A DNA stretch of 64,000 nucleotides, from positions 124,001-188,000 of the forward strand of contig NZ_JANIPD030000034.1 in the NCBI RefSeq assembly GCF_024609215.1, read 5' to 3'. Under the pieces are notes generated by a model. The model had not been told where the DNA came from and did not search any database. It was given only the letters and a program-made list of their open reading frames with translations. A program made the position numbers and the translations under genes. Within the stretch, counting starts at the first letter, position 1. Each line of letters begins with the position of its first letter. Source of the DNA: Curtanaerobium respiraculi (GTDB taxonomy: Bacteria; Actinomycetota; Coriobacteriia; Coriobacteriales; Eggerthellaceae). Of the stretch, positions 7,732 through 40,950 are shown piece after piece.

Positions 7732-7780
7732 CAACATGAAGATGATGCAATCGGGCATCTCGGAACCGAAAGGAGCTCGT

Positions 7781-11874: not shown

Positions 11875-12256
11875 GCGCCCTCGCCGCGCGCTCGCCACGC
11901 AAGATCCGAGGGTCGATGCGATAGCGAGGATGCCGAGCAAGCGGTGCGGCGATTCGCGGAGGACGGGCCCATAGGGCGTTCGGGGGAAGGTGCGCCGCGG
12001 GCACGATGGAGCTCCTCGATAGGTACACGAGGAACACCGCCGTCGCGGCAAGCAAGGCGGAACGCAAGGATCGAGATCGCATGGTTCCAGGTCGTTCGCA
12101 AGGTATCCTCTCGGTAGAGAGGGGACCGCATCAAACGCCTTTTACGGAGAAGATGGAACCCCGATGGGGTTGCGCCCTCTTCCTTCGTCATACGCCGGCG
12201 CGCGGGCGCGTGGCGAAGGCGAGGGCCGGATCCCGCTGCCAGGACCCGGCCCTCTT
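11875..12256. other. intergenic stretch without a clear gene
   Basis: About 380 bases between two convergent units. On the minus strand, short hydrophobic peptides appear in two different frames near 11900-12080 (ALLAATAVFLVYLS in one, HRLLGILAIASTLGS in another). This would fit a decayed small membrane-protein gene, but nothing is convincing. A second inverted repeat (arms near 12222-12230 and 12245-12253) flanks the terminator of rplA. Confidence 0.4.
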
Positions 12257-12288
12257 CCAGAAGGGGCTTTCGATATAGCCCCTTCTGG
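12257..12288 (-). terminator. hairpin downstream of rplA
   Basis: Arms CCAGAAGGGGCT (12257-12268) and AGCCCCTTCTGG (12277-12288) with an 8-base loop lie 18 bases beyond the rplA stop. No clear U run follows on the minus strand, so termination strength is uncertain. Confidence 0.6.
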
Positions 12289-12305
12289 GCAGTCGATAGG
12301 AAGAA

Positions 12306-13019
12306 CTATTCGGGGGCGACCGTATAATTGCGGTTGACCGACGGATCGACCTTGATGGGAGCGCCCATCGTGCTCACCACGGTGACGCTCTTGACGTAGC
12401 GGCCTTTGGCGGCTGCGGGCTTCAGGCGGAGGATCTCGTCGAACAGCGCGCCGTAGTTTTCAGCCAGCTGCTCGGCGGTGAAGCTCGCCTTGCCCAGGAT
12501 GACGTGGCAGATGCCGTAGCGATCGGCGCGGTACTCGACGCGACCGCCCTTGAGCTCGCCGATGGCCTTGGCCACATCGGGGGTGACGGTACCCAGCTTG
12601 GGGTTGGGCATCAAACCGCGGGGGCCGAGAACCCGGCCGAGACGGCCGACCTTGCCCATCTGGTCCGGGGTGGCGACGGCTGCATCGAAGTCGATCTTGC
12701 CGGCCTGCACATCGGCGACCAGGTCGTCGGATCCGACGATGTCGGCACCGGCTTCGCGGGCGGCATCGGCCGCAGCGCCCTCGGCGAACACGGCGACGCG
12801 GACGGTCTTGCCGCTGCCGTTGGGCAGGCTGATGGTGCCGCGGAGCTGCTGGTCGGCCTTGCGCGTGTCGATGCCGAGGCGGATGTGGACCTCGACCGTC
12901 TCGTCGAATTTGGCGGTCGCAGTCTCCTTCACCAATTCGAACGCGCTGATGGGGGCGTACAGCTTGGAAGCGTCGATCTTCTCGGCTGCGGCTTTCTGTC
13001 GCTTGGTCGGTTTAGCCAT
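12306..13019 (-). CDS. rplA: 50S ribosomal protein L1
   Basis: Ribosomal protein L1, 237 residues, the normal family length. It binds 23S rRNA at the L1 stalk and helps release deacylated tRNA. The sequence shows the family core ([21 protein letters not shown], then [18 protein letters not shown] split by short runs). A basic N-terminus ([14 protein letters not shown]) is typical. It lies 58 bases downstream of rplK, the standard order, and is the last gene of the secE-nusG-rplK-rplA string. In many bacteria L1 represses its own operon by binding the mRNA leader. No such leader structure was identified here. Confidence 0.97.
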
Positions 13020-13077
13020 GTGAAATTCCTTTCGTGGTAGTAGCGGGCGATCGCCCTTCCACTGGTTTACCTATGCG

Positions 13078-13575
13078 CTACTCGGCGGGGGCGCCGTCGA
13101 GGATAGCCTGGAGCTTGCGGGAGATCTTGTACTCGGTCTTGGGAGCGCGGCCCTCGATCGAAACGCCCATGGAGCGGGCGGTGCCGGCGACGATCTCCAT
13201 CGCGGCCTCGATGTCGTTGGCGTTCAGATCGGGGAGCTTGATCTCGGCGATCTCGCGGAGTTGGTCGAGGCTTAGCTCGCCGACCTTGCGGATCTGGGGC
13301 ACGCCGCTGCCGCTTTTGATGCCGAGACGCTCCTTGATGAGCACGGCCGCCGGCGGGGTCTTGCACACGAAGGTGAAGGACTTGTCCTCGTATATCGTGA
13401 TCTCGACGGGGATGATGGTACCGGACTGATCCTGCGTCTGGGCGTTGAACGCCTGGCAGAACTGCATGATGTTGACGCCCTGGGCGCCCAGGGCCGGGCC
13501 GACCGGGGGAGCCGGGTTTGCCGCGCCAGCCGGGATCTGAAGCTTGACGAAGCCGGTTTTCTTCTTTTCAGCCAT
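13078..13575 (-). CDS. rplK: 50S ribosomal protein L11
   Basis: Ribosomal protein L11, part of the GTPase-associated centre. The N-terminal proline-rich signature ([20 protein letters not shown]) and the C-terminal rRNA-binding domain are intact. At 165 residues it is about 24 longer than the usual 141, because of a basic C-terminal tail ([19 protein letters not shown]) after the normal end. The tail might be a lineage trait. It is followed by rplA in the same transcript. Confidence 0.96.
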
Positions 13576-13686
13576 GATTTAGTTTCCTAACCTCATGTTT
13601 CGAATAGTTCAATCTATCAACAAGCGCCCTGCCTGCGCGAGAAGCCCCTGTCCACCTGGGCGCGCACGCGACGCGTTGTTTCCTGC

Positions 13687-14223
13687 TTAGATGCTCGCCA
13701 CCTGGTCGAAGCTCAGCTCGACCGGGGTCTCGCGGCCGAAGATGGAGACAAGGACTTTGACCTTGTTCGCCTCGGGCGCGACCTCCGATACGGTTCCGTC
13801 GAAATCGGCGAGCGGACCGGAGATGACCTTGACCGCCTGCCCGACCTCCAAGTTGGTTTCGGTCTTGCGGGGGGCCTCCACGCTCTTATCGGAGCGCTTC
13901 ATGATCTTGTTGAATTCTTCCCGCGTCAGCGGAGCCGGGGAAGCCTGGCTGCCGACGAACCCCGTCACGCCCGGAGTGTTGCGGACTGCAGCCCAGCTGC
14001 GATCGTCAAGCTCCATGCGGACGAGCACGTAGCCCGGGAAGACCTTCTTGTCGGATTCGACGCGCTTGCCGCCCTCTTTGATCTCGGTGACGGTCTCCAT
14101 CGGAATCTCGATGCCGAAGATGTTGTTTTCGAGCCCCATCGTTTCGATGCGGCTTTCAAGATTCTGCTTCACTTTGTTCTCGTACCCGGAATAGGTGTGA
14201 AGCACGTACCATTTCTTAGCCAT
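13687..14223 (-). CDS. nusG: transcription elongation factor NusG
   Basis: NusG, 178 residues, binds RNA polymerase and couples it to Rho and the ribosome. The N-terminal NGN domain begins [17 protein letters not shown]. The C-terminal KOW domain ([19 protein letters not shown]) occupies the last 55 residues. Length and layout are normal. It starts 6 bases after the secE stop, so the two are translated together, the classic arrangement. Confidence 0.97.
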
Positions 14224-14229
14224 GTACCC

Positions 14230-14655
14230 TTACGCCCCCAGAGAGGAAATCCCCAGCAGCAGCGGGGTGACAACAAGATTATCGAGAATGAACACGTAGA
14301 CGCCGAAGAAGACGAGGGCGGCGACCACCACTCCCGTCCAGCGGATCACATCCTGCCGCGAGGGCCACGTGACGCGGCCGATCTCCTTGCGAACGTTCAT
14401 GAAGAAGCCGTCCTTCTTGAAGAGGGAACGGGGCTTCTTGGGCTCCTTGGAGGGAGCCTTCGCAGGCGCGGCTTTCTTTTCGGGAGCCTTCTCCTCGGGC
14501 TTCGAGAAACGCTTGAGGAGGCTTTTCTTCTCCTCGGGTTTGCTTTCTTCCTCCGCCTCGAGAACCGCCTCGCTCTCCTGAACCGCCTCAGCGGCCTTGC
14601 GGGCCTGACGGCGAGCGGAGGCTTTGGCCCGTTGCGTCTTTGATTTTTTTGCCAT
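14230..14655 (-). CDS. secE: preprotein translocase subunit SecE
   Basis: SecE, the small clamp subunit of the SecYEG channel. The conserved part is at the C-terminus (FMNVRKEIGRVTWPSRQDVI, then one membrane helix), where the V-x-W-P motif is intact. The first 75 residues are an Ala/Lys/Glu-rich charged extension, common in actinobacteria. ATG 14655 has AAAGGT just upstream; an in-frame ATG 39 bases earlier has no ribosome site. The product is 141 residues. Confidence 0.93.
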   Translation of the reverse strand: MAKKSKTQRAKASARRQARKAAEAVQESEAVLEAEEESKPEEKKSLLKRFSKPEEKAPEKKAAPAKAPSKEPKKPRSLFKKDGFFMNVRKEIGRVTWPSRQDVIRWTGVVVAALVFFGVYVFILDNLVVTPLLLGISSLGA

Positions 14656-14748
14656 GGCTACCTTTCGGTGGTTCTTCCGAACCCGAAATTTCATTCACTC
14701 TTAACGCCAAACAAGCAGCTTATGCAAAGCTGCTCGTAAACAAGCTGG

Positions 14749-14821
14749 CAGGCCAGGAAGGACTCGAACCCTCAACTTGCGGTTTTGGAGACCGCTGCTC
14801 TACCAATTGAACTACTGGCCT
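14749..14821 (-). tRNA. tRNA-Trp (anticodon CCA)
   Basis: A 73-base cloverleaf on the minus strand with acceptor AGGCCAG/CTGGCCT, anticodon loop CTCCAAA and T loop TTCGAGT. The 3' CCA is encoded at 14746-14748. It lies between rpmG and secE, a common place for tRNA-Trp in bacteria. Confidence 0.97.
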
Positions 14822-14833
14822 GTATGCAATCCC

Positions 14834-14983
14834 CTAGCGAGTCTCGCGATGCACGGTATGGTGCCCGCACCACTTGCAGTACTTCTTCAGTTCCATGCGA
14901 TCGGGTGTGTTCTGCTTGTTCTTTTTGGTCGTGTAATTGCGGCGCTTGCACTCGGTGCAGGCCAAGGTGACCAACGTACGCAT
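14834..14983 (-). CDS. rpmG: 50S ribosomal protein L33
   Basis: A 49-residue L33 with the zinc-ribbon form: two Cys pairs (CTEC near residue 9, CKWC near residue 36), the motif [20 protein letters not shown] and a C-terminal [16 protein letters not shown] lies before the ATG at 14983. It is found between tuf and tRNA-Trp, its standard position ahead of secE. Confidence 0.95.
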
Positions 14984-15099
14984 TCAAAACTCCTTATGGT
15001 TACAATTGAAAGCATCTGGAAGATCGCATGGTCAAGTTAAGCGGGAAGCAAGGGGCTTGCGCGATGCAAGCCCCTTGCCGGAATTTCGCAGAATCGAGG

Positions 15100-16302
15100 T
15101 TATTTGATGATCTCGGTGACGCGACCGGAACCAACCGTGCGGCCGCCCTCGCGGATAGCGAACTTCAGACCCTGCTCCATCGCGACCGGGTGAATGAGCT
15201 CGCCCTTGATCTCAACGTTGTCGCCGGGCATGACCATCTCGGTGCCCTCGGGCAGATGCACAACGCCGGTGATGTCGGTGGTGCGGAAGTAGAACTGCGG
15301 ACGGTAGCCGTCGAAGAACGGGGTGTGGCGTCCGCCCTCCTCCTTGGTCAGAACGTAGATCTGGCCCTTGAACTCGGTGTGCGGGGTCACGCTGCCGGGC
15401 TTGCAGAGAACCTGGCCGCGGACGACGTCCTCGCGCTTGACGCCGCGGAGCAGAGCGCCGATGTTGTCGCCGGCTTCGGCGTAGTCGAGCAGCTTGCGGA
15501 ACATCTCGACGCCGGTGCAGGTGGTCTTGGCGGTGGGGCGGATGCCGACGATCTCAAGCTCGTCGCCGACCTTGACCTCGCCGCGCTCGACGCGGCCGGT
15601 GACGACGGTGCCGCGACCGGTGATGGTCATGACGTCCTCGATGGCCATCAGGAACGGCTTGTCGTTGTCGCGCTCCGGGGTGGGGATCCACTCGTCAACC
15701 GCGTCCATGAGCTGCCAGATGGCTTCCTGGGCATCCTTGTCGCCTTCGAGGGCCTTCAGGGCGGAGCCGCGGATGATCGGGGTGTCGTCTCCGGGGAAGT
15801 CGTAGCTGGTGAGCAGCTCGCGAACCTCCATCTCGACGAGCTCGAGGAGCTCCTCGTCGTCGACCATGTCGCACTTGTTCAGGAAGACGACGATGTAGGG
15901 CACGCCCACCTGGCGGGCGAGCAGGATGTGCTCGCGGGTCTGGGCCATGGGGCCGTCGGTGGCGGCGATGACCAGGATGGCGCCGTCCATCTGGGCAGCA
16001 CCGGTGATCATGTTCTTCACGTAGTCGGCGTGGCCCGGGCAGTCGACGTGAGCGTAATGGCGCTTGTCCGTCTCGTACTCGATGTGGGCGATGGAGATGG
16101 TGATGCCGCGCTCGCGCTCTTCGGGAGCCTTGTCGATCTTGTCGAATGCGGTGAAGTCGGCATGCGCGGTACCGTGGGACCCGTCGTTCTCGGACAGGGT
16201 CTTGGAAATGGCAGCGGTGAGCGTCGTCTTGCCGTGGTCAACGTGGCCGATGGTGCCGATGTTAACATGCGGCTTGGTACGCTCGAACTTTTCCTTAGCC
16301 AT
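15100..16302 (-). CDS. tuf: elongation factor Tu
   Basis: EF-Tu, 400 residues, delivers aminoacyl-tRNA to the ribosome. The G-domain motifs are intact: GHVDHGKT near residue 18, [11 protein letters not shown] near 80, NKCD near 135 and SALKALEG near 173. Domains 2 and 3 follow ([13 protein letters not shown]; the end is [11 protein letters not shown]). AAGGAGG precedes the ATG. It is preceded by three tRNA genes on the same strand and does not lie next to fusA, which sits about 28 kb away at 43864-45972. Confidence 0.98.
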
Positions 16303-16424
16303 TGAAATCCTCCTTCAAAGGAATGCGCCCCGGGCGGGACGCACATGATGATGAGACAGTTTGAAATGACACTGACCTATGCGCATGCGAGCATGGGCAT
16401 CGGGTCGTGGAATATTCGAAATGG

Positions 16425-16498
16425 TAGCGGTGACTGGATTCGAACCAGTGACGCCACGGGTATGAACCGTGTGCTCTAACCAACTGAGCTACACCGCC
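16425..16498 (-). tRNA. tRNA-Met (anticodon CAT)
   Basis: A 74-base tRNA on the minus strand with acceptor GGCGGTG/CACCGCT, anticodon CAT in a normal arm and encoded CCA at 16422-16424. The full acceptor pairing with a G-U first pair favours the elongator form over the initiator. Confidence 0.93.
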
Positions 16499-16510
16499 AT
16501 GGATGCATGG

Positions 16511-16583
16511 AGCCCGCGACCGGACTTGAACCGGTGACCTCTTCGTTACCAACGAAGTGCTCTACCGACTGAGCTACACGGGC
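16511..16583 (-). tRNA. tRNA-Thr (anticodon GGT)
   Basis: A 73-base tRNA on the minus strand with acceptor GCCCGTG/CGCGGGC, stem CTTCG/CGAAG around anticodon GGT and encoded CCA at 16508-16510. It lies 12 bases from tRNA-Met in a tRNA-tuf transcript. Confidence 0.95.
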
Positions 16584-16589
16584 AAATGG

Positions 16590-16670
16590 TGGGGATACCT
16601 GGACTCGAACCAGGGAACCCAGAGGGAGCGGATTTACAGTCCGCCGCAGTTGCCGCTGTGCCATATCCCC
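16590..16670 (-). tRNA. tRNA-Tyr (anticodon GTA)
   Basis: An 81-base tRNA on the minus strand with acceptor GGGGATA/TATCCCC, anticodon stem GCGGA/TCCGC around GTA, a long variable arm as expected for tRNA-Tyr, and encoded CCA at 16587-16589. First gene of the tRNA-tuf transcript. Confidence 0.94.
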
Positions 16671-16741
16671 ATTTGCTTAACTTGTGCGATTTTCAAGCTG
16701 CATGCCCGCATACGAGCGCTTTCTCCCAAGCGAGCATGAGA

Positions 16742-16770
16742 ATAATACGCGAGCTATTGGGGGCTGTCAA
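16742..16770 (-). promoter_or_regulatory. sigma-70 type promoter of the tRNA-tuf unit
   Basis: On the minus strand TTGACA (16770-16765) is separated by exactly 17 bases from TATTAT (16747-16742), near-perfect consensus. Transcription would begin near 16735, about 65 bases upstream of tRNA-Tyr. The stretch from here to 17000 has no gene. It contains a T-rich segment and the control region of the divergent symporter gene. Confidence 0.85.
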
Positions 16771-16999
16771 CAGCCGACACGCCCCCGGGCGTTTCTTCAT
16801 TAATCCTCCGCTTCGGCCCTCCGACGGCCTTTTTTCGGACTTTTTGACGGCCTTTCGACGGCTGGTCCGTGAAGCGCCTTTCATCCCCCCATTCCCGCTT
16901 TTCCGGCGGGTCTTCCCCCAAGATTACTCCACTCGGATAAAGCAAGCGCTATACTTCTGCAGTTACGTACGCAATGACCGCCTTTTCGGAAGAGGAACT

Positions 17000-18616
17000 A
17001 TGAAAACGGGCGACACCCTCGTCATCATCGCGATTCTCATCTACTTCATCGTGGTGCTCACCATCGGCTTCATATACGCGAAGCGCTCGAACTCGTCGGC
17101 ATCCGAATACTTCCTCGGGGGGCGCAAGGTGGGCCCGTGGTTCACGGCGCTTTCCGCGGAGGCGTCCGACATGTCCGGCTACCTTCTCATGGGGCTGCCC
17201 GGGCTCGCCTACTTCACCGGCGCCGCCGACGCGGGCTGGACGGCGGTGGGCCTCGCCATCGGCACGTATCTGAACTGGCTGCTCGTCGCGAAGAGGCTGC
17301 GGCGCTATTCCGTCGTCGCGAACGACTCCATCACGCTGCCCGGATTCTACAGCAACCGCTTCCATGACGAGAAGAACACCGTGGGCACCATCGCGGCGGC
17401 CATCATCCTCGTGTTCTTCTGCGTGTATACGGGCAGCTGCTTCGTCACCGTGGGCAAGCTGTTCAACACGCTGTTCGGCTGGGATTATTCGCTGATGATG
17501 GCGTTCGGCGCCATCATCGTGTTCCTCTACACCATGGTCGGCGGTTACCTCTCCGTGGTGGCAACGGACTTCGTGCAAGGATGCCTGATGTTCTTCGCTC
17601 TCGCCGTCGTGGTGATCGGATCCATCGCCATGGCGGGAGGCATCGGCAACACGGTCGCGTTTCTCACCGACATCCCCGGCTACCTTTCCATGACGCAGAT
17701 GGCGACCCCCGCCCTCGATGCCGCCAAGGCGCAGCTCGTCGAGGACGGCCGGCCGCTCTTCGGCGACGCCTCCGAATACGGCATCCTCACCATCGTCTCC
17801 ACCCTGAGCTGGGGCCTGGGCTATTTCGGCATGCCGCAGGTGCTCGTCCGCTTCATGGGCATACGCGGCGAGAGGGAAGTGAAGACGAGTCGCCGCATCG
17901 CCATCGTCTGGGTGGTCATCAGCATGTTCAGCGCCGTCATGATAGGCATCATCGGGCGATCCGTCCTCCCCACCCAGCTGCTCTCCCACTCGGCCGCGGA
18001 AAGCATCTTCATCGTGCTTGCCCAGATCATGCTCCCCTCGTTCATGTGCGGCATCGTCGTGTCGGGCATCCTGGCCGCCAGCATGTCATCCGCATCCTCC
18101 TACCTGCTCATCACGGGTTCCAGCGTGGCTGAGAACATCTACCGAAGCATCTTCAAGAAGGACGCGACCGACGAGCAGGTGCTCATCGTCTCCCGCATCA
18201 CGCTCGCCGCCGTGCTGCTGCTGGGCATATTCATCGCCTGGGACGAGAATTTCGTCATCTTCACCGTCGTCTCGTATGCGTGGGCGGGCCTGGGCGCCAG
18301 CTTCGGCCCTCTGACGCTCTTCGCGCTGTTCTGGAAGCGCACGACCAAACAGGGCGCTATCGCGGGCATGCTCACCGGCGCGCTCACGGTGCTCATCTGG
18401 CACAACTTCATCAAGCCCTTGGGCGGCATCTTCGGCATCTACGAGCTTCTGCCCGCGTTCCTGCTGGGGTGCCTTGCGATCTTCGTCGTGTCGAAGCTCT
18501 CCCCCGGTCCGAGCCAGGAGATCCTCGATGACTTCGCCGCCTATGAAAGCCATGACATCGTGGCGGAGCGGAACATGGAGGTCGTGCTGGAGGACGGCAT
18601 GACGCTGAACGATTAA
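17000..18616 (+). CDS. putP: PutP-type sodium:solute symporter
   Basis: A 538-residue inner-membrane carrier of the SSS family with about 13 helices. It matches the sodium/proline branch: EYFLGGRKVGPWFTALSAEA near residue 38, the sodium-site region SDMSGYLLMGLPG, GYFGMPQVLVRFM near 275, and SGILAASMSSASSYLLITGS near 358. The family moves proline (or related solutes) inward with sodium ions. AGAGGAA precedes ATG 17000. The same frame runs up through the tRNA region but has no start there. A TATACT hexamer at 16950-16955 could be its -10 element. Proline is the best guess from similarity alone. Confidence 0.88.
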   Translation: MKTGDTLVIIAILIYFIVVLTIGFIYAKRSNSSASEYFLGGRKVGPWFTALSAEASDMSGYLLMGLPGLAYFTGAADAGWTAVGLAIGTYLNWLLVAKRLRRYSVVANDSITLPGFYSNRFHDEKNTVGTIAAAIILVFFCVYTGSCFVTVGKLFNTLFGWDYSLMMAFGAIIVFLYTMVGGYLSVVATDFVQGCLMFFALAVVVIGSIAMAGGIGNTVAFLTDIPGYLSMTQMATPALDAAKAQLVEDGRPLFGDASEYGILTIVSTLSWGLGYFGMPQVLVRFMGIRGEREVKTSRRIAIVWVVISMFSAVMIGIIGRSVLPTQLLSHSAAESIFIVLAQIMLPSFMCGIVVSGILAASMSSASSYLLITGSSVAENIYRSIFKKDATDEQVLIVSRITLAAVLLLGIFIAWDENFVIFTVVSYAWAGLGASFGPLTLFALFWKRTTKQGAIAGMLTGALTVLIWHNFIKPLGGIFGIYELLPAFLLGCLAIFVVSKLSPGPSQEILDDFAAYESHDIVAERNMEVVLEDGMTLND

Positions 18617-30753: not shown

Positions 30754-31899
30754 TAAGTATAACGCAATGAATGGAGACTGATTCTCAACCAGACCTACGC
30801 GTTCGCGAACCCGCACGATAAGTATAACGCAATGAATGGAGACTGATTCTCAACATTGCGTCGCAGGCGTGGTCGTCCTCCTTTAAGTATAACGCAATGA
30901 ATGGAGACTGATTCTCAACTCTTTCGGCACGTGAAGCTCGTTCTGCAATAAGTATAACGCAATGAATGGAGACTGATTCTCAACTTCTCGAACGTGAGCC
31001 TGATTCGCTCTCTAAGTATAACGCAATGAATGGAGACTGATTCTCAACCTCGAACTGAGCGTTGGTGAACTGCCTTTAAGTATAACGCAATGAATGGAGA
31101 CTGATTCTCAACTCTTGGCTTCCGTCCCAGTACCACACCTTAAGTATAACGCAATGAATGGAGACTGATTCTCAACCAGATGAGCAACATCGTCAACGGG
31201 AAACTAAGTATAACGCAATGAATGGAGACTGATTCTCAACTGCCCACCGACAGGCTCGTTAACGTCAATAAGTATAACGCAATGAATGGAGACTGATTCT
31301 CAACGTGTCCTCATCGACCTTGCGTAGGTTCCTAAGTATAACGCAATGAATGGAGACTGATTCTCAACTCGCGGCCCGTGTATTCTTCCTTATCATTAAG
31401 TATAACGCAATGAATGGAGACTGATTCTCAACAAGTCAATCATCGTCTACGCCATGCGAATAAGTATAACGCAATGAATGGAGACTGATTCTCAACCTCG
31501 AACTGAGCGTTGGTGAACTGCCTTTAAGTATAACGCAATGAATGGAGACTGATTCTCAACTGAAGGAGATGGCTGCGCACCTCCGCAGTAAGTATAACGC
31601 AATGAATGGAGACTGATTCTCAACTACTTCGCCCCGTTCCGTCCGCGCCCTCTAAGTATAACGCAATGAATGGAGACTGATTCTCAACATGCGCCATATC
31701 GTTTACGACGGAATCGTAAGTATAACGCAATGAATGGAGACTGATTCTCAACTCTTGTGTCTCATCGATAGCGATTCCTGTAAGTATAACGCAATGAATG
31801 GAGACTGATTCTCAACACTACAACGCGGGCGATTTGACCGTGGCTAAGTATAACGCAATGAATGGAGACTGATTCTCAACAGGTATTTCCCGAGCCGCC

Positions 31900-33420
31900 G
31901 ATCGCGTGCCGAATGTTGGTGTAACGGCTGTTCAGCGGATGCATTGATTGCATGAAGCGGAACGGCCATCGTCTAGAATCGTCAATTGCTGAAGTTGATA
32001 GATTCATGAGAAAGGCGATGACCGCAATGGCCAGTTTACTTCACGACGGCACCATCGTGCCCGAGATTCCCGGATTCGACGACGGCATGGTGGACATGGG
32101 GGAGCTGATCCGCACGATGGCGGAGTCCCTCGTCAACGAGATCATGGACGCTCAGGCCGACGACGCCTGCGCCGAGGGCAACATGCGCAACGGCTACCGC
32201 GAGCGCAGGCTCGTCACCAGCGTGGGCGCGATCACGCTGCGCATCCCCAAGCTGCGCATGGGCACCTACTTCCCGGAGGACCTGCTGGTGCGCTACTCGC
32301 GCGTGGACCGCGCCGTGGTGGCCGCCGTGAGCGAGATGGTGACCAGCGGCGTCAGCACCCGCAAGGTCGAGCGCGTCGCGCAGACCATGGGCATATCGCA
32401 GATGAGCGCCAGCCAGGTTTCCAGGATCTGCGAGTCACTCGACGACACGGTGGCCGACCTGCAGGGGCGCGACCTGTCCGGCCTGCGATGGCCCTACCTG
32501 TGGCTGGACGCCACCTACATCAAGTGCAGGGACGCCGGCCACGTCTCGTCCACCGCGGTGGTCACCGCAATCGCGTGCGGCGAGGACGGCTACCGCAGGC
32601 TCGTTGGCCTGGACGCCATCGACACCGAGTCGTACCCGGGGTGGCTCTCCTTCCTCGAGTCGCTCAAAGCCCGCGGCATCGAGGGCGTGGTCTGCGTGAC
32701 CAGCGACGCCCACGAGGGGCTGAAGGCCGCCATCGCGGACGTGTGGCCCAAGGCGGCGTGGCAGAGGTGCATCGTGCATCTGGAGAGAAACGCCGCAAAG
32801 CACGCAGGCAACCAGGCCCAGAGGGCCGCCATCTTCCGCATCCTGCATACCGTGTTCGCGGAGTCCGACCCCGCGCTCGTGCGCGAGCTCTACCACCTGG
32901 CGTGCGACGAGATCCGCTCGTTCTGCGCGCAGGCGGCCGACATCCTGGAGGACGCCGAGCCGGACGCGCTGGCGTACCTCGACTTCCCCTACGAGCACCA
33001 CAGGCGTCTGCGCACAAACAACGTGCAGGAGCGCACCAACCGCGAGATCAAGCGCCGCTCCCGGGTCGTGCAGGTGTTCCCGTCCAGGAAGGCGCTCATC
33101 AGGATGGCCGGCGCCGTGCTGGCGGAGAAGGACGAGGAGTGGGCGGGAAGGCGCTGGTTCACGGAGGCGTCCACCATGCAGGCTTACGAGGACCCGGAGC
33201 GCCGAAAGCCGACCCCGGAGCCCACGTACGAGGGCACGGCCGCGGAGCAGGCTGCCAGGATCATAGACCTGGTCTTGAAGACGGACGTTGACTTGGGGAG
33301 GAGAGCCGCATAAGATGGCGAGGTCTTAGAGACAAGCCGGTTCCAGATGATTCTCGGTTTGCTCGGACGGCCTTCGGCCGCCCTCCCAAACCGAGGGTTA
33401 CACCAACGTTCGCGACACTA
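31900..33420 (+). mobile_element. IS256-family element inserted into a CRISPR spacer
   Basis: Both flanks carry CCGAGCCGCC (31890-31899 and 33421-33430), a 10-bp target duplication. Removing the element and one copy yields a spacer of 28 bases, the array standard, so these are the real insertion limits within a base or two. The ends share CGAA(T/C)GTTGGTGTAAC (left 31910-31925; right 33397-33412 in reverse). The element is 1521 bp with one transposase gene. Its G+C is visibly higher than that of the array. Confidence 0.9.
31952..33313 (+). CDS. IS256-family transposase
   Basis: A 453-residue DDE transposase of the IS256 (mutator-like) family. The acidic triad is visible: WLDATYIK (Asp near residue 187), TSDAHEGLKAAIADVWP (Asp near 251) and NVQERTNREIKRRSR (Glu near 359). 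Other family sequence includes RNGYRERRLVTSVGAI and WQRCIVHLERN. It appears complete, so the element may be mobile. The ATG at 31952 has no clear ribosome site. An internal ATG at 32021 (MTAMASLL) follows GAGAAAGGCG and may be the true start. Confidence 0.93.
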   Translation: MKRNGHRLESSIAEVDRFMRKAMTAMASLLHDGTIVPEIPGFDDGMVDMGELIRTMAESLVNEIMDAQADDACAEGNMRNGYRERRLVTSVGAITLRIPKLRMGTYFPEDLLVRYSRVDRAVVAAVSEMVTSGVSTRKVERVAQTMGISQMSASQVSRICESLDDTVADLQGRDLSGLRWPYLWLDATYIKCRDAGHVSSTAVVTAIACGEDGYRRLVGLDAIDTESYPGWLSFLESLKARGIEGVVCVTSDAHEGLKAAIADVWPKAAWQRCIVHLERNAAKHAGNQAQRAAIFRILHTVFAESDPALVRELYHLACDEIRSFCAQAADILEDAEPDALAYLDFPYEHHRRLRTNNVQERTNREIKRRSRVVQVFPSRKALIRMAGAVLAEKDEEWAGRRWFTEASTMQAYEDPERRKPTPEPTYEGTAAEQAARIIDLVLKTDVDLGRRAA

Positions 33421-33594
33421 CCGAGCCGCCATCGATCAATAAGTATAACGCAATGAATGGAGACTGATTCTCAACTCGATCGTCGCCTGCCGCTTGATGC
33501 GGTTAAGTATAACGCAATGAATAGAGGGCCGACCTTGCGCCTAACGTGCCATTCAACGACCGTCGCGAGATATCACACGCATTGAATTCAACAC

Positions 33595-33927
33595 CTAGAA
33601 CAACTGTAGCTGATCAGGTCTAGACTCAGGTTGCGTGGGCTTCTTTGATACGAAGCGAGTGGCGTTCGCCCATTGGCAATCGGTTAAATGGAAAATCCGG
33701 ACCTCGCCATTTGCGGGAAGTGAGGCCCTGATAATTCTCTCAATGGAATTGTTGGTATGGATCGAGGGCGAATATTTCCCGTACACGCTATATTGAAGCA
33801 TTGCGAACCCTGAGTCCACCAGAAGCTTTCTAAACTTTGTAGCATCGTGCCGCTGAGCTTTCGTTTCGGTTGGAAGGTCAAACATCACAACGCACCACAC
33901 GGCATCATACTTCCTATCTGCAGACAT
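33595..33927 (-). CDS. cas2: CRISPR-associated Cas2
   Basis: Cas2, 110 residues, dimerises and bridges Cas1 dimers during spacer integration. It has the ferredoxin-like start VWCVVMFDLPTETKAQR with the conserved Asp and the matching LQYSVYGKYS strand. It overlaps the cas1 stop by 14 bases, so translation is coupled, and it is the last gene of the cas operon. The array begins about 55 bases beyond its stop. The presence of cas2 with cas1 and the absence of csn2 or cas4 set the subtype to II-C. Confidence 0.96.
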   Translation of the reverse strand: MSADRKYDAVWCVVMFDLPTETKAQRHDATKFRKLLVDSGFAMLQYSVYGKYSPSIHTNNSIERIIRASLPANGEVRIFHLTDCQWANATRFVSKKPTQPESRPDQLQLF

Positions 33928-34840
33928 CTAGCACCTCTTGAGGCTTCCAAATCGGGACCTCCAGAAAAGCCTCTTCCCCTTCTACATATCGACCGTACGC
34001 CTGTGCAAATTCGGTCATAACAGTCGGGATAGTCTTCCCGTCAGAATCGAATTTCCGCACGGTCGCATCGTGAAGGTGGTGCTTAATATCAGAATCGAGT
34101 GCCGTGCATCCTTCTAAATCAGCGACAGCAAGATCAACCGCAGGCCTGAAAGGCTCAATAAGATCATCAGCTAAGGCGAATGCGTTTTGTCTGCTTCTAT
34201 GGTACAACCCTAACGCAGGCGCAAGCCCTGCAGCGAGGACAGCCCGAACGCTGTGGCCTCTGAGAATCGTGTACGCGTAATCGAGCATCGAGTTTAGCGG
34301 ATCGGACCTAGCGCCCGGCGCTCTCGAAAAGTTTTCGAACAAGAACAGGGAACTCCAGTACGCACGAGCTGCGCGACCTTCAACATTAGAGACATCGCCG
34401 GACTTTACGGATCGCGCCATAACCGCGACGCCATCCGCATGCACCCTTTGCAGGAGTGCTAGGTTATTCGATTGACCAACAACCTTGGCTTTGACAATGC
34501 GCATCCATGCATTCTTTGAGCGAGGAAGGCTTAACCCGGCTTGAGCCCTCTGCCTTGCTGCAACTCGACCATGGGCATCTATCCACGGATACATGCCTGA
34601 TACCGGCATACCTTTCCAATCGCAATGCAAAACAACGATGTCGTTCTGTGCAAAGTGGAACATCACTCCGGCACCGATTCGAACCCCGATGCCGATAAAG
34701 GCTATTGCTACGTCACTAAGAGATACGGGGGTGCATCCTGGAGGATCGGAAGAGCAGACAAGCAGTTTGCGGCTGCTTTTATCGAATCTCAGCTCGCCCT
34801 TGAAGGCGGTGAAATCAAGAACTCGCCAATTCCCAGGCAT
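33914..34840 (-). CDS. cas1: CRISPR-associated Cas1 integrase
   Basis: Cas1, 308 residues, integrates new spacers with Cas2. The metal site residues are visible: Glu in NVEGRAARAYW near residue 153, and His with Asp/Glu in ALGLYHRSRQNAFALADDLIEPFRP-type sequence (LGLYHRSRQNAFALADDL) near residues 210-230. The C-terminal half is all-helical as usual. It starts 11 bases after the cas9 stop. Base composition here is lower in G+C than in the surrounding ribosomal or redox genes, which fits horizontal transfer. Confidence 0.96.
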   Translation of the reverse strand: MPGNWRVLDFTAFKGELRFDKSSRKLLVCSSDPPGCTPVSLSDVAIAFIGIGVRIGAGVMFHFAQNDIVVLHCDWKGMPVSGMYPWIDAHGRVAARQRAQAGLSLPRSKNAWMRIVKAKVVGQSNNLALLQRVHADGVAVMARSVKSGDVSNVEGRAARAYWSSLFLFENFSRAPGARSDPLNSMLDYAYTILRGHSVRAVLAAGLAPALGLYHRSRQNAFALADDLIEPFRPAVDLAVADLEGCTALDSDIKHHLHDATVRKFDSDGKTIPTVMTEFAQAYGRYVEGEEAFLEVPIWKPQEVLDVCR

Positions 34841-34851
34841 TCCGCATCACC

Positions 34852-37800
34852 TTATTTCGCTCGTTGAGAAGGCTTCCAGCTAACGGGCATATGATTGTCG
34901 GACGACCACCGCGCATAGCCCAAAGTCGATCGTCTCACTATTGTCGGGTCCGTAGAGAAGAGACTCTGCACTGTTAGCGTAACGGACTTCTCTATCGCAG
35001 CATTGATCTCCTTTACATCCTCCAAAGTCCAATTCTCGCCAGAGTACACCTGGGGTCGGATCAGCTCTTCTCGCCGCCTAAGCGTCTCAATTTTCGCTCT
35101 GGCAAGCGCTATCGCCTCTTCCGCTGTCGGGGCACCATCATGTCGGGGATTGAGCTTATCAGGATCGGCCTCCAGAATCTTCACCCGCTTCTCAATTCGG
35201 TCGATCTCATCGAGGATATGCGCGGGCTCCAGACCTTCGGCAGAAAGCTCTCTTGGGACAATAGCAAGCCTGGATGTACCCTTCTGGGCATTTATCCCAG
35301 TCACTTTGAATTTTTTCAATCCCGGGAACGCTTTGAGCAGTTTGTTAAGTTTGCCCTTTCTCTCAGGGGAGAAGTCAGCGCTTTTCAAATCCAGGACAAT
35401 CTCATCCCCCACTACGACCCAACCTAGGTACTCGGCAGAGCCGTCGAAAAGGGCATCGCGGAGGTTGCCGTTTACTGATCGTACGCTGATCGATGAGGGC
35501 TTTAGGTGGGCAGCGAATAAGTCTCCTTCCTGTTGGGATGCAAGATCACACTGGAAAACGCGCATGCCCTCGAAAGTCCAACCCGTCTGCTTGCCTTTCG
35601 AGTTGAATTTTGGAACTCGGTATATCCGGAGATGATGCAGTGCGTTACCGATTTTCGCGTAACCTTTGTTTACCGGCATGTAGATCGCGCTCGTAACCGT
35701 ATTCGACTCATCTTCGCCAGCGCACATGAGGGGAACCAAGAAATCCGGTCCGACAATCCTGTCATGCAAGCGCATGGTCCTCTGCTGATTCGCTGGCAAC
35801 CCCTTCTGCTGGTCGAAATCGGGAAGGGACGTTAGAGCAGTCCAAAGCGCAGGCGTCGAAGCCTTGTCTATTGCTATTCGGGAGAACTCCGAGGAGAGGG
35901 GCTTCTTGTATAGCGGCATGACCGTATCTTCATGTGCGGCCCCAAAGCCGTAGCGAAGACGTAGCGGCGAGGTGACCAATACTCGCCCCCTAGACATGGA
36001 TTCGCTCAATAGCCTACGAAGGACAAGCATTTGCTCATCGCGCCATTTGACATAAGCGCGTTTGGCAGTTGCATCCCCCTCGTACTCTTTCCAGGAGCCC
36101 CAGGATTCGGGGTCTTTGGAATATCGCTCCGAAATCCTCATCTCATCGCGAATAGCAAGGACCCGCGCCACGCTTGGACGCATGAAAGCAATAACGGCTG
36201 CGTCAACGGCATGATGCCGCCGGTCGAGACGAGTCTTGCTCCTTCCCCCGCCATACCAGGGAAGGCCGTTCTCTAGCCCGGAGGCTCGACGCGCCGATGA
36301 GGTGATCTGCCCGCGGAAGACGAATACGCGCTGATTCTCGCAGTCGGATTCCTGCACGGAAGACAGATAACCTTCTACCTGGTCGGCGAGAACACGCGCC
36401 ATCCAGGCGACGGACTCAATCGAGCGATTATCTATCGGCTCGTCAGCCTCCTTTTGGAGGAGCCTAGATCTAACATCTTTTTTGTAAGACCTGAACTGCT
36501 TCTCAGTGAAGTACCGCGGGTCGCGAATCCAACCGTTCAACCTTTCTAGCGCAGCTTTCTTCTGCTCGGGGGTGGCCCAGGAGCTGAAAAGCCGGTTGCT
36601 TTTTCTCTTGTTGCAATCCCGGCAAACAGCCACCAGATTCGCGCGGTCGTTAGAGCTTCCCTGCCCCTTTCGAGGAACGATGTGGTCCATTTCCGCGGTG
36701 TATGCGTTGATCTCCCTCCCGCAGTAGAGACATTGGCAGTTCTGTCGTTGTATTGCCTGGTTCCGTCGCACGTCGGACCGGCTTACGGCAATGGGAGGCA
36801 CTTCGATGCCTTGAGCATCTGACAGCTCCTTCGCGCATTCGTAGCGAGCGAGCAAGTTAGCTTCGTATTTGGAATTCATTTCGCGTTGAAGAGTTTGAAC
36901 CGCATGCGGGCTTTTGAATCCGTCGCGTACATGCTCGATATTCACTGTTTGGGGAACTCCCCATTTCGTTACGCACGCAGCGATCCAGCGGCTCACGATC
37001 ATTATGGTGCGGTCGATTGAGGGGCTGCCGGTTGGAGCCCCCAACGGTTCGGGCGCAGGACGCCAGTCGTCCCCCACGCCGAACTCGGTTTTTCGAGCTT
37101 CATGCAGATTCTCCCCCGCTAGCATCCTTTCGCACAGCCGTGAGAGCGTATCAATGCTGTATGCGGCTCTGCCAGCCACCAGCTTGATAGATTCGAGTTT
37201 TTCCAACGCTGTGCCTTCCAGCGAGCTGATCATATTTGCAGAGGACTCATAAGCCGCTCGCTCGACATCCGTCAAAGCGTCAAGATTCACACCCGCATTG
37301 CCCAAGAGACTTATTAGGAACTCTCTCTCCAAAGGGCGAGCGATATCCCACCAGTCTTTCAGGGGTTTCAGTTCTTTTTTTATTCCGTCGGCTTTCTCGA
37401 TTGAGGCAAGGGTATCGAGAATCGGAGGCTTCTTCGCGGAAATGGGGTCACCGTCCATAGTCGTACCGCCAACTCCACGTAACTCGTTGCGTTCTACGCC
37501 CAGAACTTCCGCAACGTCCGTCCATGACAAATCAGAGTCTAATGCTGCCGAGGTGGTGCAAAGGAAGTCGTAGAGAGTATTCAGCTCCGTCGGATCAAGT
37601 TTGCGCTCAGAGCCATGTAGCTTGATTCTCAAATTAGAGATCGTTGCAAGGATCCGGTACCGTTGGAAGGCAAGGGATGCCCGTGAAGCTCGCTGCCGCG
37701 ATGGTTGCAATGGGTCTTTGCCAGTTGCTTCCGAAGCCGCACCGACATCACGCGGGTTTACCTGCGCGAAAACAGCCTTGAGCAGCTCCTGCTTTTCATC

Positions 37801-38640
37801 TTCGTTAACCTTCTGTTTCTCAAGAATCAGCTTGGCTTCGTAGTAGCTATCGCTTTGATGAAGCTTGCCAATTTGGGCAGTTTGAACAGAAGCGTCCGGA
37901 GTCGTTTTCCTCAATCGGTTCTTCTCTTGAGGATGATCGGACATCAGGACTTCGGCCAATTCGGCCACCGTCGGCCTTTCAACGGTCGCTGCGGACGAAT
38001 CCCATCGTGAAAGTTCCACTCTCGTTTTTCCCTTTGAGTCGACAGTGATCTTAACCCTTGGATCAACCTCAATGCCATTTTCCCGTTTCCACAGTTGCAC
38101 ATTACAGAAAAAATCATCGTAGAAGGGAGAGGGAGTCTGAGATGCGGAATCCAGGGTCTCGAATCGGGAATACGGATTCCTCCATCCACAATGGCGGGCG
38201 ATGTGACGAAGGGCCACCGCCACCGCTAATTTACGCTCGGTTTCATTCTCGATATAGCCGGATGAAGCCTCCACACGCGCATGCCAGGGCAAGTAGACAT
38301 CGCGTTCGTCCGCCCATTGTTTGATTTCCCTAGCTCTTTCTACCGGGTACCCATATTCGCCAAGTACACGATCCAGTGCCGCTAGCCGCTCGCGCCTGCG
38401 TTTGCCCATCCGACGAATCCGCCGCGCCGCCCCCGAAATCTTTTTTCTTGAATCAGCAGCCTTGTTGTTCGACTTCGGATCGACCCCACCGTCATGGATG
38501 ACGCTCATCGAGTTGAGAATTTTAATGGGGTAAGCCTCGAGTGGATTCGGATTCGAATCGTCGATTTCTATTGCGGCAAGTCCTACCGAGTTCAAGCCGA
38601 CATCGATTCCGATACGATAATTAAGGTGCTTGCTTCCCAT
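34852..38640 (-). CDS. cas9: type II-C Cas9 effector nuclease
   Basis: Cas9 of 1262 residues, the RNA-guided double-strand nuclease. RuvC-I (GIDVGLNSVGLAAIE) is at residues 11-25. An arginine-rich bridge helix follows at about 70-95 (ARRIRRMGKRRRERLAAL). RuvC-II is NIEHVRDGF near 567. The HNH domain is near 635-690 with zinc-type CLYCGRE and MDHIVPRKG, NLVAVCRDCNKRKSNR. RuvC-III is HHAVDAAVIAFM near 808. Catalytic Asp, Glu, His and Asp are all present, so it looks active. At 1262 residues it is longer than the typical 1000-1100 of II-C Cas9. The extra length lies in the recognition and PAM-reading C-terminal parts. AGAGGA lies ahead of ATG 38640. Confidence 0.96.
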   Translation of the reverse strand: MGSKHLNYRIGIDVGLNSVGLAAIEIDDSNPNPLEAYPIKILNSMSVIHDGGVDPKSNNKAADSRKKISGAARRIRRMGKRRRERLAALDRVLGEYGYPVERAREIKQWADERDVYLPWHARVEASSGYIENETERKLAVAVALRHIARHCGWRNPYSRFETLDSASQTPSPFYDDFFCNVQLWKRENGIEVDPRVKITVDSKGKTRVELSRWDSSAATVERPTVAELAEVLMSDHPQEKNRLRKTTPDASVQTAQIGKLHQSDSYYEAKLILEKQKVNEDEKQELLKAVFAQVNPRDVGAASEATGKDPLQPSRQRASRASLAFQRYRILATISNLRIKLHGSERKLDPTELNTLYDFLCTTSAALDSDLSWTDVAEVLGVERNELRGVGGTTMDGDPISAKKPPILDTLASIEKADGIKKELKPLKDWWDIARPLEREFLISLLGNAGVNLDALTDVERAAYESSANMISSLEGTALEKLESIKLVAGRAAYSIDTLSRLCERMLAGENLHEARKTEFGVGDDWRPAPEPLGAPTGSPSIDRTIMIVSRWIAACVTKWGVPQTVNIEHVRDGFKSPHAVQTLQREMNSKYEANLLARYECAKELSDAQGIEVPPIAVSRSDVRRNQAIQRQNCQCLYCGREINAYTAEMDHIVPRKGQGSSNDRANLVAVCRDCNKRKSNRLFSSWATPEQKKAALERLNGWIRDPRYFTEKQFRSYKKDVRSRLLQKEADEPIDNRSIESVAWMARVLADQVEGYLSSVQESDCENQRVFVFRGQITSSARRASGLENGLPWYGGGRSKTRLDRRHHAVDAAVIAFMRPSVARVLAIRDEMRISERYSKDPESWGSWKEYEGDATAKRAYVKWRDEQMLVLRRLLSESMSRGRVLVTSPLRLRYGFGAAHEDTVMPLYKKPLSSEFSRIAIDKASTPALWTALTSLPDFDQQKGLPANQQRTMRLHDRIVGPDFLVPLMCAGEDESNTVTSAIYMPVNKGYAKIGNALHHLRIYRVPKFNSKGKQTGWTFEGMRVFQCDLASQQEGDLFAAHLKPSSISVRSVNGNLRDALFDGSAEYLGWVVVGDEIVLDLKSADFSPERKGKLNKLLKAFPGLKKFKVTGINAQKGTSRLAIVPRELSAEGLEPAHILDEIDRIEKRVKILEADPDKLNPRHDGAPTAEEAIALARAKIETLRRREELIRPQVYSGENWTLEDVKEINAAIEKSVTLTVQSLFSTDPTIVRRSTLGYARWSSDNHMPVSWKPSQRAK

Positions 38641-38681: not shown

Positions 38682-38700
38682 TATTGCAAGAGGATAAACC

Positions 38701-38800
38701 TAAAGAAAAGCCCCCTTGCGGGGGCCGGCCCTGATTCAAGAGCTGAGAAGTCACATCGCCAAACTAGGACGATGCTTATTGAGAATCAGTGGGTTTAGTT
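38701..38800 (-). ncRNA. tracrRNA upstream of cas9
   Basis: On the minus strand, 38790 to 38778 reads ACTGATTCTCAAT and pairs with all 13 first bases of the crRNA repeat (one G-U pair). It is followed by a stem CATCG/CGATG near 38753-38775, a linker with GAATCAG, and a Rho-independent terminator at 38710-38725 (GCCCCC/GGGGGC, loop GCAA) with a U-rich tail. That order (anti-repeat, nexus stem, terminator) is the standard tracrRNA plan. The 5' end is not defined and may lie further upstream. It lies between cas9 and the IS110-family element. Confidence 0.9.
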
Positions 38801-38924
38801 TAACACAGATGAATAAGGTTGTTGGGCGTTTAGCACCTGAGGAAGACCAGCTATGAGGAGTCAAGGACCATAAGACAAGTTTTTGAGATTTATCGGATTA
38901 TCGGAACTTTGCACTTTGACAGCT

Positions 38925-40145
38925 TCATATCGAATCGTTCAGAGCATGCTGCTGAAGCTTTCTGCTCTCGAATCCGGGGTCGTAGGGTTCCCGCTTGGAC
39001 AGCACTGCGTAGATGATGTGGACGAGCTTCCTGGCGACGGCTATGAGCGCCTCCCTGTGCGCCTTGCCGTCCTTGCGCTTCTTGAGGTAGTAGTCGTAGA
39101 GCGGCCCCCGGTTCTTCAGCTGGGCCATTGCCGCGAGGTACAGGGCGCGACGGAGGTACGGCGACCCCTGCTTTGCGATGCGGTTCGCTCCGCCCTCGAA
39201 GGTGCCCGAGTCGTTTCTGGACGGATTGATGCCGGCGTACTTCACGATTGCGGCGGCGTTCTTGAACCTCTTGACGTCTCCGATCTCGGAGACGATCTGG
39301 GCGCCGGTCTTGTACGAGATGCCCGGGATGGTGAGGATGAGCGGCTCCATCTCGTCGAGCATGGGCCTGATCTCGGCCTCGAGTTCGGCGATCTGGCCCT
39401 CGATGAACCCCATCTGCTCGATGAGCAGCCTGACCTGCAGAGAGAATGCGTCGGAGCATAGGCGGATGCCGCAGGATCCCTTCGCGGCGCTCTTGAGCTC
39501 TTTGGCCCTGCCGCGGCCCAGCTTGCCGTGGCTGGCCTTCTCGAGCAGCCTGGTGAGAGTGCGGATGTCTATCGACTCGCACCCCCCGGCCGTCGGGCAG
39601 CGCTCCAGGAAGGCCTTCGAGGTCTCCCCGAACATGTCGCAGAAGATTCCCTCGTACTCGGGGAATACCTGGTCGAGAGCGACCACGACCTGCCTCTTCA
39701 GGTCGGAGACCTCGCCGGTCAGCGACTGGTGCAGGCGGGTGAGCTGGCGCAGGGACATCATCTTCTCGTCGGCCAGCCTGCTGGGCTCGAAGTCGTCGCA
39801 GCGCAACGTGTCGGCGATGACGCCGCAGTCGACGCGGTCGGTCTTCACCTTGCCGAGGTTCTTGAACTTGCGCATCGCGTCAGTCTGTATGGGGTTTATG
39901 ACCACGACGTCGTAGCCGGCGGCCGTGAGCGCGCAGAAGCACGCCAGCCAGTAATGGCCGGTCGCCTCCATGCCCACGAGCACGTCGGATTTGTCGTCGG
40001 CAAGCCCCTCGAGGTAGGACACGCACCCCTCGAAGCCGGCGGAGGAGTTCTTGAACCCCATCGGCTTCGAGGCTGTTCTGCCTTTCTCGTCCACCGAGCC
40101 GACCCAGTGGTCGTATTTGGCTATGTCGATGCCAGCGTAGAGCAT
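38925..40145 (-). CDS. IS110-family DEDD recombinase
   Basis: A 406-residue transposase of the IS110 family. The N-terminal RuvC-like DEDD sites are YAGIDIAKYDHW, GMEATGHYWL and KTDRVDCGVIADTLRC. The C-terminal Tnp20 domain has IPGISYKTGAQIVSEIGD, then AGINPSRNDSGTFEGG. ATG 40145 has GGAGG seven bases upstream. The frame stays open for 225 more codons before this ATG, but that part does not belong to the transposase. The gene appears intact. Confidence 0.92.
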   Translation of the reverse strand: MLYAGIDIAKYDHWVGSVDEKGRTASKPMGFKNSSAGFEGCVSYLEGLADDKSDVLVGMEATGHYWLACFCALTAAGYDVVVINPIQTDAMRKFKNLGKVKTDRVDCGVIADTLRCDDFEPSRLADEKMMSLRQLTRLHQSLTGEVSDLKRQVVVALDQVFPEYEGIFCDMFGETSKAFLERCPTAGGCESIDIRTLTRLLEKASHGKLGRGRAKELKSAAKGSCGIRLCSDAFSLQVRLLIEQMGFIEGQIAELEAEIRPMLDEMEPLILTIPGISYKTGAQIVSEIGDVKRFKNAAAIVKYAGINPSRNDSGTFEGGANRIAKQGSPYLRRALYLAAMAQLKNRGPLYDYYLKKRKDGKAHREALIAVARKLVHIIYAVLSKREPYDPGFESRKLQQHALNDSI

Positions 40146-40393
40146 CCCGGATGCCTCCGTTCCAATCGCGGCAGGCACCCTGCTCGACCGCCCGGGCCCA
40201 CAACCTCCTGCAAGAGATGCGAGGTAGCCGAGAATCTTCAAGGCTCCGTCATCCAGCTTATCCGTGGACCGCCCCGGGCGGGGCAGGCCGTCATTCTTTC
40301 TCGCGAGGTCGAAAGCCTCAGGAAACAGACGGACGTGCCTGCCTAGCCGGTCATGCAGCACATTCTGAACGGTTCGATTGAAGCGGTCAAAAT
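40146..40393 (-). ncRNA. possible bridge RNA region of the IS110-family element
   Basis: This is the non-coding 5' part of the element. IS110-group recombinases are known to be guided by a structured bridge RNA encoded in such a region. Several G/C-rich complementary segments are present (e.g. GGACCGCCCCGG around 40265-40275 and GGGGCAGGCC). I did not resolve the two binding loops, so the call rests on position alone. Confidence 0.35.
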
Positions 40394-40950
40394 GCGATGA
40401 ACTAACTATAGGAGGAAACTTTGGAAGCCAAGGGCCAATCAACAAGGCTAATCGCGTTTTCCCCTCCCAGTTACTTCCCTCAGCGCCAAATAGATCGGAT
40501 AATCGCAAACGCCGTCTCTGGGAAACCGCAATCGAATCATCCAATTGGCTTCTAACCAGCGAAAATGGCATGGACATCAGCAGATCGATTTGGTTCAGCA
40601 TTCGCGAAATGCGATTTGCCTCTATAAATGGCGCAGATGTGCGGGATGCTCTCGGGAAAATGCGATTATCCCCTATATCTGGCGCACACGACTTGGATTG
40701 CATGGTGACCTTCTCCCTTGGTACTGACTCTATCGCGTACCAGGTAAATCCAGCCTGAACATCTGCATTGAACAGATGCCTCTGCTTGAATTCGCCTTTC
40801 GCCCGAAGAGGTCTCAGCACCCGAAGAGGCCTCAGCGCCCGAAGAGGCCTCAGCGCCCGAAGAGGCCTCAGCGCCCGAAGAGGCCTCAGCGTCCTCCGGC
40901 GGCGACCGACTGGCTAGAGGCTAATCGGCCCGTAAGTCAAGGGGGAGGTC
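40394..40950. other. IS-flanking non-coding region with gene remnants
   Basis: No convincing intact gene. The minus frame at 40400-40820 is open and repeats a 17-residue unit (APDIGDNRI, then APFIEANRI), mirrored by a 31-base DNA repeat at 40607-40637 and 40658-40688. On the plus strand, 40799 onward reads a stop-flanked tail of PEEASA repeats and looks like the end of a truncated protein. Both fit debris from insertion or deletion. Confidence 0.45.
40800..40889. repeat. five tandem 18-bp repeats
   Basis: Five copies of CGCCCGAAGAGGCCTCAG at 18-base spacing, the first two with single changes. In one plus-strand frame they read P-E-E-A-S-A over and over and then a stop 12 codons later. No start is visible in that frame because a stop lies at 40787-40789. 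Confidence 0.9.

Follow-up and report, generated by a model that had tools for sequence, protein, structure and literature searches.

A type II-C CRISPR array from the Eggerthellaceae in which each repeat probably carries its own -10 promoter element

The CRISPR array of Curtanaerobium respiraculi analysed here belongs to type II-C, and we estimate a probability of about three in four that each of its repeats combines a tracrRNA-pairing site in the 5' part with a minimal -10 promoter in the 3' part. A separate guide RNA is very probably started from this element in each repeat. The array lies in a window of 64,000 nucleotides (contig NZ_JANIPD030000034.1, positions 124,001 to 188,000 of the forward strand), to which all coordinates refer unless another locus is named. 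A reading of this sequence alone had proposed repeat-borne promoters before; it was mostly right, and it described something already known for type II-C systems.

Locus organisation and crRNA strand

On the minus strand, the locus runs in the order IS110-family gene, predicted tracrRNA, cas9, cas1, cas2 and array. As in type II-C systems, cas9 (34852..38640, 1262 aa, TIGR01865), cas1 (33914..34840, TIGR03639) and cas2 (33595..33927, TIGR01573) are adjacent, the Cas1 is of type II, and a tracrRNA with an anti-repeat is predicted (38700..38790). A check for csn2 or cas4, which covered the locus only and set aside frames overlapping cas9, found no same-strand open reading frame of at least 80 aa from the IS110-family gene to the array besides cas9, cas1 and cas2. 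The IS110-family transposase gene itself (38925-40820) lies just upstream of the tracrRNA.

The anti-repeat (38790-38778, minus strand) pairs with repeat nucleotides 1-13, and downstream of it come a terminator-like hairpin (38726-38709) and a T-rich tail. The crRNA strand is therefore the minus strand, independently of any -10 element, and this agrees with the orientation that the sequence-only reading had taken from the repeat end. An Rfam search of 28-42 kb returned three matches, none near its family's gathering score, and no tracrRNA. A putative extended -10 element of the tracrRNA, TGTTAAACT, lies at 38797..38805 (minus strand); a start from it would fall on the anti-repeat.

The array itself (30754..33539, minus strand) comprises 19 identical 36-nt repeats and one degenerate repeat. 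Its left block (30754..31880) holds 18 perfect repeats, which read GTTGAGAATCAGTCTCCATTCATTGCGTTATACTTA on the crRNA strand, and 17 spacers, of which 14 measure 28 nt and three 29 nt. All three 29-nt spacers (30790-30818, 30855-30883 and 30920-30948) are found at the cas-distal end, and one identical 28-nt spacer is present twice (31049-31076 and 31497-31524), the copies being offset by seven units. The 19th perfect repeat (33440..33475) sits on the cas2 side of an insertion, followed towards cas2 by the first spacer (33476..33503, 28 nt) and by the degenerate first repeat (33504..33539), whose putative -10 element adjoins that spacer. One unit (65 nt) beyond this half-repeat, a possible older relic (33569..33604, minus strand; 17/36 matches, a weak resemblance) overlaps the cas2 stop. 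Exact scans of viral contigs for one whole spacer, and for four others by their 3' parts of 20-21 nt, gave 0 matches, so no PAM was read from these five spacers.

The insertion is an IS256-family element (31890..33430) inside one spacer. It is flanked by the 10-bp direct repeats CCGAGCCGCC at 31890-31899 and 33421-33430 and encodes its transposase on the plus strand (31952-33313).

A -10-like element at the end of every repeat

Read on the minus strand, all 20 repeats, the 19 perfect ones as well as the decayed first, end in TATACTTA, although these copies count as one observation and not as 20. The end contains the hexamer TATACT, a 5/6 match to TATAAT, which stops 2 nt before the repeat end and occupies the same register (repeat start +2 to +7) throughout; in the last repeat it lies at 30756..30761 (minus strand). 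Given this position, transcription is predicted to start at about spacer nucleotide 5. The proposal that each repeat carries a -10 element stands once it is reworded to TATACT with a 2-nt inset, and so do the placing of the predicted start within the next spacer and the link to known II-C systems.

We scored the element with a simple -10 score that uses E. coli frequencies. The repeat reached 8.3. Within 2 nt of the 3' end, 12 of 40,712 window 36-mers score at least this high, as do 0.48% of the sequences obtained by shuffling the repeat. A looser test, which took the best score anywhere in the shuffled repeat, gave 0.036. The opposite strand offers TATAAC without the last T, scoring 2.1.

The extended -10 form is absent, with CGT in place of TGn; TGn is common and not required. 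It is the form found in Neisseria and Campylobacter. No -35 hexamer lies 16-18 nt from TATACT in the window's repeat, which has TTGAGA at 21 nt instead, and a two-hexamer promoter scan returned no site in the window's repeats. Lacking both TG and a -35 at 16-18 nt, the predicted element is of modest strength.

Repeat ends and spacer lengths in other arrays

For comparison, 98 loci were scanned for arrays; those with type II repeats were used, and II-C and II-A were told apart by repeat form. Since the crRNA strand of L146 and L148 is unsettled, neither entered the repeat scan, the tree or the decay counts. The best -10 match ended 0-2 nt from the repeat end in 28 of the 30 distinct II-C repeats, whose strands had been set by eye before the scan but after the repeat ends were seen. 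Both misses (L168 and L169) are from Bacteroidota. Among the II-A-like rows, 32 in number with one repeat (L107) entered in both directions, the best match lay near the end in seven, with scores of at most 1.7. The II-A-like repeat of L105 exactly matches the repeat of Coriobacterium glomerans, which PMC4607530 lists under II-A. That the 3' placement is common to 28/30 II-C repeats versus 7/32 II-A-like rows supports the promoter reading as the best explanation.

Strands were then checked in 32 rows by anti-repeat and terminator. This oriented 22 rows, 19 in agreement with the strand used and three contrary to it (L067, L168 and L169, each at about the lowest allowed score); ten rows gave nothing. 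Among the 19, two (L163) are self-matches and L140 stands at the lowest score. Without L163, 17 arrays are left, the only ones free of the choice by eye. As to the contrary rows, the 47-nt repeat of L169 (Prevotella nigrescens, 11512-17245 of its locus) contains TATCTTTG well inside, a fit to the promoter TAnnTTTG of Bacteroidota.

The window belongs to a clade with 28-nt spacers in which TAnACT occurs in 10 of 10 repeats, 2 nt inside the end in nine and 1 nt in L052. The terminal two bases after the hexamer vary (TA, AC, AG, TC, TG), and eight of the ten members have the TG of an extended -10 that the window lacks. In L052, the end of repeat #15 resembles the decayed start of #1 (GACACCGCC), as if by internal recombination.

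The inset follows spacer length. Where spacers measure 28 nt, the hexamer lies 2 nt inside the repeat end (once 1 nt), and where they measure 30 nt it is flush with the end (twice 1 nt short). Modal spacer length plus offset came to 30 in 25 of 28 repeats, to 29 in one (L052) and to 31 in two (L059 and L066); among the 17 strand-checked arrays the sum was 30 in 16 and 29 in one. Such a rule would hold the distance from start to repeat, and so the guide, constant. In a Cas1 tree of 33 rows, all ten 28-nt arrays group together (support 100/100), and they therefore represent one evolutionary change and are no statistical proof of the rule. An Acidothermus array, which would have served as a test, was found in 0 of 396 genomes. 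No tie between -10 inset and spacer length appeared in the literature surveyed, mostly at listing level. The rule would predict II-C guide length from DNA alone, resting so far on that single change.

Decayed repeats

The first repeat (33504-33539) has 12 mismatches, at nucleotides 1-4, 7-13 and 17, while nucleotides 18-36 are intact. Its best duplex with the tracrRNA region has an energy of -9.1 kcal/mol versus -18.3 kcal/mol for the consensus. Decay was counted across II-C arrays, leaving out L168, L169, L146, L148 and repeats with N. In eight decayed first repeats, none of 55 mismatches fell in the hexamer and 53 fell in nucleotides 1-18. The hexamer was whole in 10 of 12 decayed repeats that precede a spacer (damaged in two) and in 0 of 5 decayed last repeats. 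These counts are confounded, since terminal repeats may decay from the outer side. In a first repeat the outer side is the 5' half and in a last repeat the 3' half, so outside-in decay alone gives the same hexamer pattern.

The decayed end differs among arrays. In the window it is the crRNA 5' end, beside cas2, unlike in three of its relatives, L055 (array at 7736-8148 of its locus), L057 (12076-12561) and L058 (11568-14036), where decay affects the crRNA 3' end, remote from cas2, and a perfect repeat adjoins cas2. The crRNA 5' end is the decayed one in L052, L067, L142 and L154; for L067 and L142 the strand lacks confirmation by the tracrRNA. The decay in L055, L057 and L058 suggests that spacers are taken up at the crRNA 5' end, contrary to the II-C rule. 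The cas9 of L055 has one stop codon, and that system may be decaying.

Array direction

Less usual is that the array of the window and those of its closest relatives point the same way as the cas genes. In all five members of this closest clade (the window and L055-L058, one Cas1 group with support 100/100) cas2 is directly followed by the array, which shares the strand of the cas genes; array strands come from the tracrRNA, which in L058 was read by eye. A Cas9 search for further members gave matches in 6 of 395 genomes of the order, one of which (L149) has no array on its contig. An 'opposite' array orientation is given as a II-C rule in PMC6737040. The window does not have this canonical antisense arrangement, which is not a defining II-C feature.

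Across 33 loci, 20 arrays were opposite to the cas genes and 13 on the same strand. For the 20, the strand comes from the tracrRNA in 12 and from a second-ranked match in L163, five have no such basis and two (L168 and L169) have weak contrary matches. The eight same-strand loci outside the clade comprise six with the array elsewhere, their strands mostly unchecked, and the two unsettled ones, L146 and L148. Same-strand arrays are hence not confined to the window's clade; no other array directly downstream of cas2 is settled.

The flanks differ as well. A motif like CGTCnGAAAA occurs 48-51 nt past the last repeat in 18 of the 23 other II-C arrays that formed its training set and is possibly a II-C leader element. 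In several arrays it lies close to the cas2 stop. The motif had no site on either side of the window array, and at about 50 nt it was missing from 4 of 4 testable flanks of the clade and from L145.

These findings could be joined in a tentative proposal, which we consider rather doubtful as a whole. A II-C subclade of one order would have its array turned round relative to the cas genes and the canonical leader, and at least some of its members would, like II-A systems, add spacers at the crRNA 5' end. Promoters in each repeat would make this tolerable, and a trade-off of 28+2 versus 30+0 would keep one guide length. If true, such promoters make expression indifferent to array direction and to breaks. 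The window's clade is a concrete candidate open to test. The new contributions, both provisional, are the same-strand direction in this clade and the length rule.

Expression of the array

If the promoter reading holds, RNA polymerase would start at about spacer nucleotide 5, and the guide would measure about 24 nt. The guide of Neisseria meningitidis has 24 nt. The transcript would enter the next repeat and pair with the tracrRNA, and RNase III or another nuclease would cut it at that point. The first repeat would act as a promoter-only half-repeat that drives the first spacer and should pair poorly with the tracrRNA, and because of this poor pairing read-through RNA from cas2 would yield no useless guide. 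With an element for each spacer, the 17 intact spacers on the far side of the IS256 insertion would need no outside start. The spacer split by the insertion should be lost in any case. The suggestion that both halves of the broken array stay active has a precedent in Flavobacterium psychrophilum, where both parts of a II-C array broken by IS256 are transcribed (PMC10309648), and would hold for all but the spacer that contains the element.

The strongest alternative is that read-through from the cas operon, which runs in the same direction, yields most of the array RNA as a single precursor, that tracrRNA and RNase III then cut this precursor in the manner of II-A systems, and that TATACT is an inherited relic of little activity. 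A long read-through precursor is possible because the array begins 55 nt past cas2 on the same strand and no terminator-like site was found in the gap. In L056 the array even begins 2 nt past the cas2 stop codon, and the window's repeat lacks the TG that eight of the ten members of the 28-nt-spacer clade have. Against this, all ten of these members keep TAnACT despite a diverged repeat middle, and the IS256 insertion, if it stops transcription, would cut off 17 spacers. We regard a mainly single precursor as unlikely, though read-through from the cas operon may add to starts in each repeat.

Alternatively, the conserved 3' end could serve Cas1-Cas2 as an integration signal, or form a terminal inverted repeat, rather than act as a promoter. 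In several repeats of arrays with 30-nt spacers, the end TACAAT or TATAAT does mirror the start (GTTGTA...TACAAT), and there both causes overlap. In the window's clade no mirror partner of the hexamer is evident, its inset is 2 nt and the two bases after it vary; in L052 a single base follows it, and it is absent from the II-A-like repeats found in the same class of bacteria, all of which makes this explanation improbable. That TATACTTA is a chance AT-rich end of one repeat is least credible of all, for although one observation was copied 20 times and the loosest shuffle test gave 0.036, its score recurs at that place in only 12 of 40,712 window 36-mers, and a position common to 28/30 II-C repeats already disfavours chance.

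Comparison with known systems

Promoters in II-C repeats are already published (PMC3656092, PMC4607530, PMC12080349), and the mechanism is not new. Among the closest systems is that of Campylobacter jejuni, which bears out the link to known repeat-promoter systems. There every repeat has a promoter of its own, transcripts begin at position five of the spacer, and measured starts as well as Northern data are available (PMC3656092). The two systems share cas9-cas1-cas2, a tracrRNA, a 36-nt repeat, a -10 at its 3' end and a start within the spacer, measured in C. jejuni and predicted in the window; unlike in the window, the C. jejuni -10, TGGTAAAAT, is flush with the repeat end (PMC3656092, PMC4607530). 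In C. jejuni the crRNA 3' end still depends on RNase III, whose absence leads to an accumulation of longer transcripts (PMC3656092); the earlier idea that crRNAs arise one by one without processing was therefore too strong. In PMC3656092 and PMC4607530, II-C arrays are depicted as antisense to the cas genes and convergent on them, unlike the window's.

In Neisseria meningitidis a promoter is likewise embedded in each repeat, and RNase III is reported to be dispensable (PMC5006608); an organisation similar to that of C. jejuni is mentioned for this species as a personal communication in PMC3656092. The N. lactamica repeat differs from the window's in having TGCTACAAT flush with its end (PMC4607530). 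For Riemerella, PMC5006608 reports that no repeat promoter was found. The -10 lies a few nucleotides inward, as in the window, in the II-C repeats of Acidothermus cellulolyticus and Sphaerochaeta globus, and the excerpt of PMC4607530 draws no tie to spacer length.

In a survey of 364 arrays, first-repeat mutations fall mostly in the first 15 nt, as they do in the window, and a promoter role of the first repeat is named as a possible constraint by its authors (PMC12080349). There, spacers are reported to be acquired at the last repeat, whereas decay in three of the window's relatives points to the other end. To these systems the window adds an actinobacterial case of well-determined orientation, in which the -10 is inset and a decayed first repeat retains its promoter half intact. 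Its broken array resembles that of F. psychrophilum CN46, where IS256 also interrupts the array and RNA-seq found both parts transcribed; that strain differs in belonging to the Bacteroidota and in its repeat promoter motif, a TTG 35 bp upstream of each spacer (PMC10309648).
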